Below, piece after piece: positions 274-6,172 of a DNA stretch of 6,947 nt. The notes under the pieces were generated by a model, which had not been told where the DNA came from, did no database searches, and saw only the letters and a program-made list of their open reading frames with translations. Every line of letters begins with the position of its first letter. Position 1 is the first letter of the stretch. Source of the stretch: Bacteroidales bacterium (GTDB lineage: Bacteria > Bacteroidota > Bacteroidia > Bacteroidales > SM23-62); contig JADHVS010000227.1 in assembly GCA_016783865.1 (NCBI GenBank), positions 1-6,947 on the forward strand, read 5' to 3'. The position numbers and the translations under genes are program-made.

Positions 274-1902
274 TTAAAGAACAACCAGTTTCTCCCTTGC
301 CAGAATCCGGCCTTTTCGTTCCACCGCCAGCAGGTAAATCCCAGCATACAGCGCCGATACATCCACTTCAGTCTCTTTCCTGAAATCCCTTGTCAGGATC
401 TTCCTCCCGAACAGATCATACAGGATCAGCTTCCCGCCTCCGATTGCGTTTCCTCCTATTACATCCTTCAATCTGACCTGCACTTTCTCTGCGGCCGGAT
501 TAGGGAAGATATGCAACCGGTATCGCTCTTCAGTTCCGGCCGGTTCGCCATATCCCGTGATGATATCGCAATCGCAATCGATGGTATCGGTGAGGATGGG
601 GAAGGGACATAAACTATCGTATACAAAGGGAAATGAATACAGCGAATCATACTGGAGGTCGCTGTTGACTTTTATCGCCAATCCATCCACCTCAGTGTAG
701 GAGGACTCCGGGGGGCAATAGCCTGTGATCAAAAACTTCCCGTCAATCGATGAGGTGATACATTCATTGTATACCGAACCCGTATCATTTTCTAAAGAAA
801 CAAGAACATTAAAAGCCGTATCCGTCTTAAAAAGCCCTAAAACTCTTGGAGGACCGCCTGTTAAATTATGAGAAATCTTTGCTGCTTGAATAAGTGCGCC
901 ATCTGCCGTTGTTTTTAGGCCCAACAACATATTGACAATAGTATCAGTTTGGAGAGTCGTTTCATACAATAAGTTCCCGGAAAAATCAAACTTTCCGTTA
1001 TATGCCGAAAAATGAACAAAAGTACTTGATCTTTGTTTTGATAAAATATAATCATATCCTACAGCAAAATACTTATCAAGATATTCTATGGTATTCGGGA
1101 TTACTCCTTCATGATTGGTATCAAGATAAAGAGGTCTGATCCATTGGCCATTCCCAAGACTATCGACTTTCACAAGCATATGCTGCAGGCGCCACATAGT
1201 TGGATTCAGTGTGTCTAAGGGGAAATAACAACTTCCGGAAAAGAGATAACCCTGATCACTGGTTATAATAAAGTCTTCCACAAGCGGATCGCCGATATTC
1301 GGATGTGTGCCGGGGGGAACAATATAAAAACTTGATAGGTTATTTCCTGCGGTATCAATTATCCACAGCTTATCAGCTTTATATCCTTGCGGGGCTGCAT
1401 ACCTGGTATACAGTGCATAATTCCCATCCGGCTTAATCTTAACCCTGTATCCATAGTTCATATTGAAATACCGGATTACTTTACACCACACCTTCTCTCC
1501 ACAGGCATTTAAACGCATAATGAAAACATCACCCCACTCATCATATTGATTTATTTGTCCAGTGAGTATTATTTCTCCATTTTCATCAATGTCAAAAGAA
1601 GCTAAATAAATTAATATATCAGCATTATATAAGGACTTTGACCATAAAATGTTTCCGTTGATGTCTGTTTTAACTAACCAAATAAAATAATCATTCGGTG
1701 TTTCAGAGCTTGCATTTATACCCACTACATATCCATGGTCATATGATGATTTCGCTGAATAGATTATATCAAACCGATCAGGAATCCCATAGGTTCTCTG
1801 CCAGATCTCATTCTTTTGGGCGAAACAAGGAAGGTTATTTATTCCTGAAAGAACAAATACTAATATAGCAATTGCCTTAATATTCATTGACAAGCGGCTC
1901 AT
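274..1902 (-). CDS. Secreted propeller-like repeat protein with T9SS type A sorting domain
   Basis: The protein has 542 aa. A signal peptide covers residues 1-29: a hydrophobic stretch after MNIKA, ending CFAQ. About seven repeats of 43-50 residues follow (48-92, 101-145, 152-194, 209-259, 270-317, 326-373 and 381-424). Each has a D(Q/G)GY-like turn with a G, then a strand and turn resembling LVKTDINGNILW, as at residues 76-87. This pattern is typical of delta-60/propeller-like repeats in Bacteroidota surface proteins. Residues 460-542 form a T9SS type A tail with IFPNPA at 465-470, LYDLFGR at 494-500, and the GIYLL and closing KLVVL strands. The start at 1902 overlaps the upstream stop as ATGA, which points to translational coupling. 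Met6 (codon 1885-1887) is an alternative start that gives an equally good signal peptide. Export and the sorting tail are well supported. The propeller fold is inferred and the ligand or role is unknown. Confidence 0.9.
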   Translation of the reverse strand: MSRLSMNIKAIAILVFVLSGINNLPCFAQKNEIWQRTYGIPDRFDIIYSAKSSYDHGYVVGINASSETPNDYFIWLVKTDINGNILWSKSLYNADILIYLASFDIDENGEIILTGQINQYDEWGDVFIMRLNACGEKVWCKVIRYFNMNYGYRVKIKPDGNYALYTRYAAPQGYKADKLWIIDTAGNNLSSFYIVPPGTHPNIGDPLVEDFIITSDQGYLFSGSCYFPLDTLNPTMWRLQHMLVKVDSLGNGQWIRPLYLDTNHEGVIPNTIEYLDKYFAVGYDYILSKQRSSTFVHFSAYNGKFDFSGNLLYETTLQTDTIVNMLLGLKTTADGALIQAAKISHNLTGGPPRVLGLFKTDTAFNVLVSLENDTGSVYNECITSSIDGKFLITGYCPPESSYTEVDGLAIKVNSDLQYDSLYSFPFVYDSLCPFPILTDTIDCDCDIITGYGEPAGTEERYRLHIFPNPAAEKVQVRLKDVIGGNAIGGGKLILYDLFGRKILTRDFRKETEVDVSALYAGIYLLAVERKGRILAREKLVVL

Positions 1903-4900
1903 TGAGTAATGATAAATTTAGTGGTTGCTACTGTTCTTCCATTAGTTCTCAAAGAACAAAGATAAATCCCGGATGAATAGGATTCACATCGAATGACAAG
2001 CTGATTATAATAGTGTGTGACCGGAAGTCTGACAATCCGAACACCGGATAGTGAATAGATCTCTATCTCTTTGTTTGAAAGACCATAAGTATCTCCTGAA
2101 GAATAAAACATATATTCAATAACATAATAGTCTCTTGCCGGATTAGGATAAACTTTCACCCAATGCTTGTCCGCACATTTCTTTTGAGCCTGATCATGTA
2201 GTTGTTCCCCAGCGCCAATACTCTTCAATGAATCGAATGGAAGTATGATCTGTTCCGAAAAGGTCAACTTACCGGCGGCCTGCAGTAAATTCCGCGCCAA
2301 AACACCGGGCAGAATTGTGTCGTTTTGCGCCAGTTCTTCCAGCATGAGCGTTTGTGTGCTATTCAGGTACCATGGAAAAATATTCCCGGAATCGAGCTGG
2401 GTTAATACATTGAAAAGATCAAGATATCCCTGGTGAATTTCCTGTTCTAAGTTATCCAAGATGAAGACTGATGGAATTGAAGTCAAGACAGAGTCAACGC
2501 CTGTGATCATGCCTGATTTTAAAAATATAAATGCAAGCAGGTATTTCGATGATAACGATTCATCGTTGGTGAACAGAACCTTCAGACTGTCAAGCGGATC
2601 ATTGACCAGGGAATCATGACAAAGAGAGAAGATCAGTCTGCCGAATATATGCCTTTCCATTGAATGCTTTTCCTGAATAGTGGCTTCCAATATCTCTTTT
2701 GCTGACAAGAAATAAATCCCCTCCATGATCTCTGCCTTCATGGTATCAGGCATTGGCACTAAGCGTTCATCCAGTTTATCCATCAGCGAATCCTGTTTGG
2801 CCGCCTGAGGATTGGCGACCAGAATATCCCGGAGGAAAGCGTTATTCAATACCTCCTCTTTCAGAATCGACGAATTCATCACCGAATCAGACAAGCTTGG
2901 GGACTTAAGCATTAATTCGTCATAAACCTGCAATGCTTGCGGAGGTATGCTTGTAATAACTGTGGTATTTAAAGCCGCGGTATTTCCCCCGTCTACAAGT
3001 AAATTCAGTTCCAGTGTCAGACTGTCAATTTCTTCATTCAATTCCTGTCTTGTTTCATAAAGGCTATCTCTTCCATAATCTAATTCTAATGGATCACAAT
3101 TAATCTCTGAAACGGCTATCAATCCTGTCTCTCGATAAACCTTAACCGGACTGTTTACATTAAAGGGGTAATAATTTGGATAATCTAAATAATCTGAAGG
3201 CACAACATATCTGATATTATTCTCAGCACCATTAAAAATATTATAATCACAAATGTTTTGGGCGGTAAATGTATTCCCTGCCGGATTATCCAGGGTTCCC
3301 TGATGATACGCGATGCCCATACGGGTCTCATTGATCCCTCCTTCAGGATATTCGGGTTCCTCAAGGATCACCATATCATTCAGGCAATCCGAAAAATCGT
3401 TACATCTGTAAACCAACCCTTCCCCTTCGTCGTCTCTGTTGGCGCCAAACGCTATTGTGCCATAATCGAGATCCTGGAAGGAATTTTTATAGATCTGCTT
3501 GGGATCCCCTCCGCAATAATACACATAAATGCCGATATGCCCCCGTTGCCCCTGCATACCCGGTTTCTGAAACACATTTTCGGTGATCATATTCCATTGG
3601 GTGGAATGATCAAGATAGAGTCCATAACAGGTATCCCCGGTTACATTGGGTATCTGGAAAGCATTATTTCGAATCCTCTCATATGTTATTCCACTCAGAT
3701 AGATTCCTCTTCTATTACTCTCAAACCAGGAATTTGTAATTTCAATCTGATAATCAGGATTATACCAGTTGCCGAAAGCATAAATCCCGTAATTAAGGCC
3801 AATAAAATTCTCTTGATTCGGATTCAAAGGATCCGGATTCCCTCCATCAAATGAGAACTCTGAGTTATAGGCGTAGATCCCTATAGTTTTTCTTTTTGGA
3901 GATCCGTTTTCACGGAAAGTACAATTCGAAAACCCGAAATTTTCTCCATGTGTCCCATTTACAACAACAAAATATTGAGCATAGCTCCCGTCAAGCAATA
4001 GGCCATGGGTTTCAAAAGTATCGGCAATAAAATAGCTTGCACAGTCATCGATCGTGTACGGTGCAAACACGACGGCCTGTTTGTTATCCCTGAATGTCGA
4101 ATGCCTACCCTGGATTATTCCTCCGGAATATCCGGGGTAGGTTGCCCAACCAGATCCTTCATTCCAGTCGGGTTTAAAATTCCGAATTCCCAGGCTCATC
4201 TTTTCGATCGTTGCATGATCGAGTTCCAGAACACCCTGATCCCCTAATTGGGTTTCATTTGAATTACCCCATACCTCAATCCCCTGCCAAAATTCTCCGC
4301 ATCCGGCTGTGATCCTAGGAAAGTAATTGTCCCCACCATGTACTTTTGGGGCCATGATAAGTTTCCCTCCCCTTTCAATAATGATTTTTGCATCCGGCCC
4401 CATCCATAACGTTGCTCCCAAAACAGTCACTGTAGCGCCATCCTTAATTATTAAATCGCGGTTGAAATGTCGGTCGGTTTCCCAGTGGGCTATAGGAGAG
4501 GAATAAATAATTTCCGGATTATTAGGGTCATAATTGCAATTTTCAAGGCAACCGTAATCCTCATCGTAATACCCTTCATATTTGTTCCAATCGTTGCAGT
4601 CTTCCTGGTCCTTGATCACTCCGTACGGACATCCACAATCAAATGGATCAATTTGATTTCCACCGGCATCCCTATGTATCCCCCACCAATAATAGCCGTC
4701 TTCATCTTCGTCGCTGCATAATATCTCAATCGGAATCTCTCTAAAGATTGACCCATGTAAATAGATAATATCCCCGAATTCTGTATAATTTATACCGGAT
4801 ATTGAGTAAAATTGTGATCCTCCCCAGCTGCTATTTTTAAAAATCCATTCCGTACTTTCAAGAAATGGACAAACCTCGTCCAAGACAATATCTGGGTCAC

Positions 4901-5972
4901 CTGCGCCCGTTCCATGATAAACAGTATCCCCTAATTTCGCTGTTTTATACCCGACCAATAACATAAAATGCCACATATAAGGGATATGACATGAAAGTGG
5001 ACCCATTTTAATCAAAGCGCGTTTGATATCATCATTATTATTAAAAGATAAAGAGGAGAAATCAGATATCTTGATGTATTCTGTTGGATTGTAACATAAT
5101 GAACAAGGAGGATTGTACGTTGTTTGACCTGATCCGTAATAGTATTCATAGCTAAAACAATCATCATCATGGACGCCATCATTCTTCATTTCATTGAAAG
5201 ATGACAGATGATTCCCTGGTGACAGGCAATTAAGCCCGAGATTATATGGCCCTAAACATCTCATCACCTCGAGTTCAGATAAGTCCAGATCCAGTTGATG
5301 AGTATATGTCGCTCCTTCATCATTGGAATTGAAATACAAATTTATATAAGCCTCTGTTGCAGCTACAGCTGAAAAAAACCAACATGAATAACAATTATGC
5401 TGATCGACAATGGGTGTTATCCAACCCGTTCTGTTGTCGACAATATTTTCATCTCCATCGTAATATGGTGAATTTTCATTGTTCGCGCCATGCCGGTTCC
5501 TCCAGTCAAATTCTCCGACAAGGTCAGTAATATCCGGTATATATACTCTTTTATTAATCATTTCATATACGCCACCTTTATAATAGTCAAAACCCAGTAT
5601 ATTGAATTTCACGCCAAATAATATCTCTTTCTCATAAAAATATTTCTCAACAATCCCAGTTCGACCTGCTCTCCAGTACATCTGCTCCTCCACAATCCGT
5701 TGATTCATGATATTGATCTTCACCGAATCATGTTCCCATTTAGCCTGGGCTTGAAGTTCCGTTGCATGAGAGATATAGGTTGTGTCCAGCTTCAGGCTGT
5801 CCAGATCCAGAAAGGCGCTGATGATATCGATCCGGAGTGAATCACAGATCACACCGTCCAGAAAGGTGGTTTCATCGGACGCATGAAGAGTATCAAAGGC
5901 ATTTTCAACTGTGATCAAGGGATAGCATTCAAAAACCATATAATGATTCCCGTATGTGTCAATCAGTACCAC
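1899..5972 (-). CDS. Secreted C1 (papain-like) cysteine protease / beta-helix giant with T9SS sorting domain, main reading frame
   Basis: These 1357 codons lack an export signal because the 5' part lies in another frame (6002-6172). Numbering is from the GTG at 5972. Residues 95-155 are propeptide-like (WRAGRTG, GFDYYKGGVYE). Residues about 156-410 form a papain-type domain: Q191 of the oxyanion hole and nucleophile C197 in DQHNCYSCWFF, H335 in MWHFMLLVGY and N380 in WIFKNSSWGG. Residues 419-480 are rich in Cys and Asp (DEDEDGYYWWGI, DQEDCND), resembling metal-binding linkers. Residues about 500-930 carry WQGIEVWGNS and many GIY/N-F repeats, as in right-handed beta-helices. Residues 965-1250 are mostly helical. 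Residues 1270-1357 form a T9SS type A tail (VYPNPARDYYV, IYSLSG, GIYL). The GTG is only the first possible start in this frame; the frame is open back to about 6068. The stop overlaps the next gene. Protease activity is likely if the N terminus is restored. The substrate is unknown. Confidence 0.88.
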   Translation of the reverse strand: MVLIDTYGNHYMVFECYPLITVENAFDTLHASDETTFLDGVICDSLRIDIISAFLDLDSLKLDTTYISHATELQAQAKWEHDSVKINIMNQRIVEEQMYWRAGRTGIVEKYFYEKEILFGVKFNILGFDYYKGGVYEMINKRVYIPDITDLVGEFDWRNRHGANNENSPYYDGDENIVDNRTGWITPIVDQHNCYSCWFFSAVAATEAYINLYFNSNDEGATYTHQLDLDLSELEVMRCLGPYNLGLNCLSPGNHLSSFNEMKNDGVHDDDCFSYEYYYGSGQTTYNPPCSLCYNPTEYIKISDFSSLSFNNNDDIKRALIKMGPLSCHIPYMWHFMLLVGYKTAKLGDTVYHGTGAGDPDIVLDEVCPFLESTEWIFKNSSWGGSQFYSISGINYTEFGDIIYLHGSIFREIPIEILCSDEDEDGYYWWGIHRDAGGNQIDPFDCGCPYGVIKDQEDCNDWNKYEGYYDEDYGCLENCNYDPNNPEIIYSSPIAHWETDRHFNRDLIIKDGATVTVLGATLWMGPDAKIIIERGGKLIMAPKVHGGDNYFPRITAGCGEFWQGIEVWGNSNETQLGDQGVLELDHATIEKMSLGIRNFKPDWNEGSGWATYPGYSGGIIQGRHSTFRDNKQAVVFAPYTIDDCASYFIADTFETHGLLLDGSYAQYFVVVNGTHGENFGFSNCTFRENGSPKRKTIGIYAYNSEFSFDGGNPDPLNPNQENFIGLNYGIYAFGNWYNPDYQIEITNSWFESNRRGIYLSGITYERIRNNAFQIPNVTGDTCYGLYLDHSTQWNMITENVFQKPGMQGQRGHIGIYVYYCGGDPKQIYKNSFQDLDYGTIAFGANRDDEGEGLVYRCNDFSDCLNDMVILEEPEYPEGGINETRMGIAYHQGTLDNPAGNTFTAQNICDYNIFNGAENNIRYVVPSDYLDYPNYYPFNVNSPVKVYRETGLIAVSEINCDPLELDYGRDSLYETRQELNEEIDSLTLELNLLVDGGNTAALNTTVITSIPPQALQVYDELMLKSPSLSDSVMNSSILKEEVLNNAFLRDILVANPQAAKQDSLMDKLDERLVPMPDTMKAEIMEGIYFLSAKEILEATIQEKHSMERHIFGRLIFSLCHDSLVNDPLDSLKVLFTNDESLSSKYLLAFIFLKSGMITGVDSVLTSIPSVFILDNLEQEIHQGYLDLFNVLTQLDSGNIFPWYLNSTQTLMLEELAQNDTILPGVLARNLLQAAGKLTFSEQIILPFDSLKSIGAGEQLHDQAQKKCADKHWVKVYPNPARDYYVIEYMFYSSGDTYGLSNKEIEIYSLSGVRIVRLPVTHYYNQLVIRCESYSSGIYLCSLRTNGRTVATTKFIITQ

Positions 5973-6001
5973 TCGTACCAGGCTGGAGTCGCTGAGTAAG
6001 T

Positions 6002-6172
6002 TTACTCCCCCCCTGACATTTTTAATGAATATACGGGCGTTGATCCTGAAAATGGTGTGAGAATGGTATCAGAAGAATAGGTCTGGTTGATCGTGATCAC
6101 TTGTGCGTTACCCTCTAATGCGCTGCAAATAAAGATGATCATCGCAAGGAATGATTGAATAAATGCTTTCAT
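6002..6172 (-). pseudogene. 5' fragment of the protease/beta-helix gene: signal peptide and mature N terminus, frameshifted from the main frame
   Basis: The ATG at 6172-6170 begins MKAFIQSFLAMIIF followed by ICSALEGNAQ, a textbook Sec signal peptide with cleavage after NA (before Q24). About 30 mature residues follow (ITINQTYSSDTILTPF, then STPVYSLKMSGGE) and the frame stops at TAA 6004-6002. At the G7 run the frame used by the large downstream gene takes over: reading GGG GGG GGA GTA AAC gives SGGGVNLLSDSSLVR and then VVLIDTYG, a smooth continuation. The restored protein is about 1424 aa. The TTG at 6229 would add 19 residues ahead of a perfect signal peptide and overlaps a promoter-like element, so I prefer 6172. 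I label the fragment a pseudogene only because it is out of frame here. It may be intact in reality (base-call error), phase-variable, or expressed by a -1 slip. Confidence 0.8.
6007..6013 (-). other. G7 homopolymer (coding strand) at the frameshift junction
   Basis: Seven Cs on the plus strand read as G7 in the mRNA, in the context TCA GGG GGG GAG TAA. The signal-peptide frame enters this run and ends two codons later. The long protease frame is open upstream as far as the stop at 6069-6071, so the two frames overlap across the run. Eight Gs, five Gs, or a -1 ribosomal slip on GGG would join them. Confidence 0.85.

Follow-up and report, generated by a model that had tools for sequence, protein, structure and literature searches.

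Most of the phase variation known in the Bacteroidota is brought about by inversion of DNA. Bacteroides fragilis, for instance, is described as varying its surface between ON and OFF states by means of invertible promoters (PMC3090145). Slippage in a coding-region poly-C tract is the reported switch of NalP, a surface protease of Neisseria meningitidis (PMC5472700, PMC3796261), and phase-variable loci of Campylobacter jejuni have been taken from G/C tracts of at least seven bases, which are described as lying mostly within reading frames and in genes with mainly surface functions (PMC4965091).

The stretch of DNA analysed here (6947 bp in all, referred to as the window), whose probable source is an uncultured member of the Bacteroidales, encodes a predicted protease that can be compared with each of these systems. 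NalP is its closest functional likeness, being a surface protease with a homopolymer in the coding region, but NalP is subtilisin-like, is an autotransporter and not a T9SS substrate, comes from another phylum and has documented switching. With the contingency genes of C. jejuni the window shares a G/C tract of at least seven bases within a reading frame and a putative surface function, whereas those genes mostly encode surface-modifying enzymes and their tract lengths have been measured colony by colony, the present comparison using assembled sequences alone. B. fragilis belongs to the same phylum and also varies its surface in an ON/OFF manner, but it does so by promoter inversion and with no coding homopolymer. 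In family and in domain order the window protein agrees with the T9SS type A-sorted C1 peptidases of Bacteroidales, most listed members of which differ from it in having an in-frame stretch of signal-peptide length (119 of the 142 that carry the N-terminal motif).

No report of homopolymer switching of T9SS substrates was found in the literature as judged by titles and abstract openings of mostly open-access papers. Papers in which a word search finds both T9SS and phase-variation terms (e.g. PMC8714846) describe no such switching in the portions of text available.

The frame break at the G7 tract

The protease locus lies on the minus strand of the window. Its open body frame, recognised with the help of full-length relatives, has 1357 codons from a GTG and extends over 1899..5972 (minus strand, stop codon included). 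A match to the papain family (C1) covers 4956..5441 of the minus strand and comes from profile search (Peptidase_C1, PF00112, E 8.9e-15, spanning positions 5-151 of the 220-position profile), from alignment A1 and from reading of the sequence. C197 and H335 are invariant in alignment A1 (n = 32, window included), C197 is aligned with cathepsin K in an alignment that covers the Cys only, and N380 is read in the sequence. The profile match together with the Cys, His and Asn places the protein in papain family C1, and protease activity is predicted. Further along the body are a NosD-like beta-helix stretch (3447..3779, minus strand; profile search, E 5.4e-6) and a Por_Secre_tail, the T9SS C-terminal sorting domain (1908..2153, minus strand; profile search, E 2.5e-9), which scores 37.7 bits, well over the cut-off of 27 bits, and so qualifies as a T9SS type A sorting tail. 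The stop codon of the protease overlaps the start codon of the next gene in the sequence ATGA (1899..1902, minus strand). This next gene (274..1902, minus strand) encodes a T9SS-tailed partner of 542 aa which, by profile search and comparison, is homologous to the genes that follow the protease in genomes G001 and G004.

Upstream of the body, and in another frame, lies an N-terminal piece of 56 codons (6002..6172, minus strand), delimited by the frames and by alignment with the relative P0013. It holds a signal peptide and the start of the mature N-terminal domain. The signal peptide, MKAFIQSFLAMIIFICSALEGNAQ, occupies 6101..6172 of the minus strand; its boundary was set by eye, with full-length relatives as the guide to the putative cleavage site. 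Read from the ATG at 6172, the piece runs from MKAFIQ to SLKMSGGE and is closed by a TAA shortly downstream of a run of seven Gs, the stop codon ending at 6002. This run, C7 on the plus strand and G7 on the minus strand, is located exactly at 6007..6013 and falls in codons 54-56 of the piece.

When the N-terminal piece is aligned alone with P0013, 34 of 55 residues match and the alignment ends at SGG; the family match is picked up again at GGVNLL in the body frame. On the 5' side of the tract the body frame reads IKNVRGG, in which IKNVR is unlike the relatives; GGVNLLSDSSLVR, which comes next, is relative-like. Because the two pieces have their matches in a single protein family, and these matches adjoin where the tract encodes Gly-Gly, the change of frame must lie inside the tract. 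The first-pass annotation had described an export signal at ATG 6172 out of frame with the 1357-codon body, a switch of frame at the seven Gs of 6007-6013 and an otherwise intact large frame, and all three descriptions are borne out, the first two by frames and homology and the third by a body with zero internal stops. In this copy, the N-terminal Sec signal peptide that belongs to T9SS type A sorting is therefore present, as seen by eye, but is not in frame with the body. The GTG at 5972 was also considered as the start of a cytoplasmic protease and was rejected, as this would cut the family's N-terminal domain and make the T9SS tail useless.

The suggestion that eight Gs would restore the gene does not agree with the relatives. 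G8 yields three Gly, which were found in none of the 54 proteins with the site located (out of 121 proteins, drawn from the best matches), as against a Gly pair in six of the 54 (P0002, P0008, P0013, P0016, P0017 and P0022).

This G7 is the sole G/C run of at least seven bases in the window. In 500 dinucleotide shuffles of the window the mean number of such runs is 0.89, and 59% of the shuffles have one or more. About one run is thus expected by chance, and the mere presence of G7 is not unusual. What counts is that the sole break in the window sits inside the tract; the remaining coding sequence, approximately 6 kb, keeps its frames throughout, even across an A7 and two G6 runs. A G/C tract of at least seven bases near the 5' end, with the frame set by its length and a T9SS tail that points to a surface location, is one feature of homopolymer phase-variable genes. 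A search with the N-terminal piece, which misses short fragments that have not been called, scored only the window's own fragment and thus gave no second copy split at the same place.

Poly-C leaders in related genes

The strongest result of the analysis lies outside the window and consists of ten poly-C leaders, C7 to C11 in length, in loci L162-L171. Poly-C in a signal peptide was first spotted in L030 and later in further loci of two genomes. The ten related genes have a common leader in which the poly-C begins at base 14, counting from the A of the ATG, within the n-region of the signal peptide. When the three genomes of the family of G001 were searched for the pattern, G001 itself yielded eight leaders and G004 two, while G159 had none. 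The exact pattern was found in two of the 393 genomes of the order at nine places (seven in G001 and two in G004), as compared with zero places for the reversed pattern in the same 393 genomes. The eighth leader of G001 was found only when one mismatch was allowed.

The tract lengths of the ten genes are C7 in one, C8 in four, C9 in three, C10 in one and C11 in one. In all four genes with C8 (L162, L163, L164 and L166) the ATG and the signal peptide share a frame, and the other six are out of frame, with C7 in L165, C9 in L167, L168 and L169, C10 in L171 and C11 in L170. The bodies of the out-of-frame genes are open over 1385 aa in L165, 1380 aa in L167, 1446 aa in L168, 552 aa in L169, 1497 aa in L170 and 1380 aa in L171. 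For the in-frame genes the bodies are 1376 aa in L163 and 1391 aa in L166, with L164 short at 410 aa. L162, on the minus strand, has its tract in frame, yet the frame is lost at codon 85 after the ATG and the gene is likely a true pseudogene. When L162 and L167 are compared, 92 bases are identical on either side of the tract and the difference is one C.

Comparisons of body pairs (ON/OFF and OFF/OFF) give dN/dS values of 0.15-0.34 at dS 1.3-2.0 in four of the six pairs, the other two being saturated. These values indicate that the bodies have been under constraint, and they do not date the OFF state. Taken together, these data make it very probable that T9SS protease export from the poly-C genes of G001 and G004 is phase-variable by a slipped-strand mechanism. 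T9SS protease paralogues with poly-C in the signal peptide would then be a second way of surface variation.

Gene callers can lose the signal peptide of such genes, as in P0125, P0127 and P0145 and even in the in-frame L163, where the start of P0129 is called 82 residues late despite an in-frame signal peptide. Secretome surveys would consequently miss genes of this kind. The pair P0123 and P0126 is 99.9% identical over 1150 aa, with a signal peptide called in P0126 and not in P0123, a contrast that is only suggestive because P0129 shows that start calls are weak evidence.

From position 847 of L169 onward, on the plus strand, a protease-type C9 leader precedes a gene of the partner type, which looks as though the leader had moved by itself.

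Explanations for the split in the window

The in-frame and out-of-frame lengths, C7 to C11, in related genes give support to phase variation, which was one of three explanations offered at first for the window. That part of the proposal has gained from the poly-C genes of two genomes, which do not by themselves prove switching in the window's own cells. Where matched over its length, the window protein is 35-36% identical to the products of the poly-C genes; they belong to the same family but to a different lineage, and have the tract at a different site. Switching is far better supported for G001 and G004 than for the window.

The reading preferred here, with a probability of about 0.5, is that the window copy is in the OFF phase through a slip similar to that of the poly-C genes but at another site. 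The locus would be a two-gene unit in which the first gene encodes a papain-type protease that has a beta-helix part and is exported by T9SS, and the second an overlapping T9SS partner. Replication slippage in G7, soon after the signal peptide, would have put the signal and the body in different frames, and ribosomes starting at ATG 6172 would halt after 56 codons so that no protease is exported. Since the partner start overlaps the protease stop, coupled translation of the partner would probably be lost too. A later slip in G7 would turn the gene back ON. Such a mechanism would require that G7 is real in cells, that the gene is expressed and can revert, and that selection maintains the tract as a switch.

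Some observations speak against the OFF-phase reading. The window is without a poly-C leader and has its tract elsewhere, at a site where no such tract is seen in the relatives measured (22 of 46 matches), G7 is rather short for a contingency tract, variation in tract length was seen in related genes only, and there are plain lesions in the family (L091, L162 and L090). The window is accordingly given a lower probability than the poly-C genes, because decay is common in the family and the lineage of the window has no poly-C leader.

An alternative is a recent ordinary pseudogene, in which G7 is a mere mutational hot spot and the slip is fixed or on its way to fixation with no selected switching. 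This is rather unlikely, in that the lone lesion falls in the one G/C run of at least seven bases while the other codons of the 1357 and the partner gene are open, and related genes vary in tract length with open out-of-frame bodies. However, the family is rich in paralogues and includes broken members (L091, where there is no homopolymer, L162 and L090), which makes decay common enough to account for a single slip in G7. Indels and errors are also described as commoner causes of a solitary frame break than programmed events (PMC3711429). The finding that relatives have no comparable tract near the site points the same way; the longest G run there is 4, counted on the coding strand for G only in the 22 of 46 matches that carried the measuring motif.

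An error of base calling or of assembly at the homopolymer, with the real gene intact, was at first regarded as the simplest explanation. It is ranked lower here and considered improbable. Homopolymers are a classic error site and the window is a single contig, but the absence of any further break from about 6 kb of coding DNA argues against an error, as does the state of comparable tracts in relatives. Among 24 G/C tracts of at least seven bases in L001-L079, none was identified as splitting a gene, 13 are plainly intact and 11 are unclassified, five of the latter being poly-C leaders; the test covers L001-L079, requires 60 open codons on both sides and is blind to breaks at the gene start. 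The protein cluster of the window, P0001, can be viewed from both sides. The 56-aa fragment is not listed on the 7714-bp contig of this cluster, which fits an in-frame copy there and could have other reasons, but the representative of the cluster is the short form (1346 aa), even though there are two members.

The remaining alternative, low-level export by programmed -1 frameshifting of the ribosome or by slippage during transcription at G7, is highly improbable and has lost the support it had: AGTAA (read GAG TAA) directly follows the tract and a -1 shift would reach the body frame, but neither a conserved slippery site nor a downstream stimulatory structure is seen, as the tract is not conserved in the relatives measured (22 of 46 matches, the DNA of the closest relatives not among them), the downstream RNA is not unusually folded (91 nt, folded without pseudoknots; z -0.84, equalled by 43 of 200 shuffles) and most relatives need no shift (119/142).

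If the OFF-phase reading of the window is placed beside the poly-C genes, homopolymer switching of T9SS surface proteases might have arisen more than once in Bacteroidales, as n-region poly-C in the G001/G004 lineage and as poly-G after the signal peptide in the window lineage. Export of the protease/beta-helix protein and its coupled partner would then be stochastic, gene by gene, across paralogues. This wider picture is tentative and has somewhat less than an even chance of being right.

Relatives of the protease and its partner

The family search gave 221 relatives, and the following statements on the protein family rest on the best 120 of these. The closest relative outside the window's own cluster is P0002, with 56% identity. 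P0002 is called without a signal peptide, from MSGGV, in which the Met stands two codons upstream of the homologous Gly pair; its gene may or may not be split. In a set of 214 proteins, made up of the best 120 of 221 and the best 120 of 177 with the window's own fragment excluded, the N-terminal motif is recognisable in 142 and not in the other 72. A stretch of signal-peptide length precedes the motif in 119 of the 142 and is absent in 23.

An alignment-based scan of genome contigs gave at least 79 loci, all from uncultured MAGs and mostly labelled Bacteroidales or Bacteroidetes; no match was obtained when the genome contigs were scanned with a single protein, or in viral contigs. Matches were found in 135 of 393 genomes in the order sample (E 1e-3), in 14 of 43 in the family sample (E 1e-60) and in one of 395 in the phylum sample (E 1e-90). 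Genomes may have many paralogues, with 25 matches in G001.

A homologue of the partner is present in 109 of 171 loci, a count in which loci overlap, many loci are short and five of the six query partners are drawn from the same loci. The adjacency of protease and partner was read frame by frame in G001 and G004 only. In the six partners compared (L162-L171 region and window) the T9SS partner comes after the protease and has a length of 517-542 aa, with the ATGA overlap seen in the window.

The nearest relative of the window by DNA, L090, is 37% identical and has an internal TAG. In L091 (minus strand, at about 1402 in reverse-complement coordinates) the signal peptide and the body are in different frames, and the break, which has no homopolymer of six bases or more, represents another type of signal-body split. 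In L063 a UvrA-like frame has at its very start a C9/G9 run (position 2690, G9 on the plus strand), and no ATG is listed upstream of the run.
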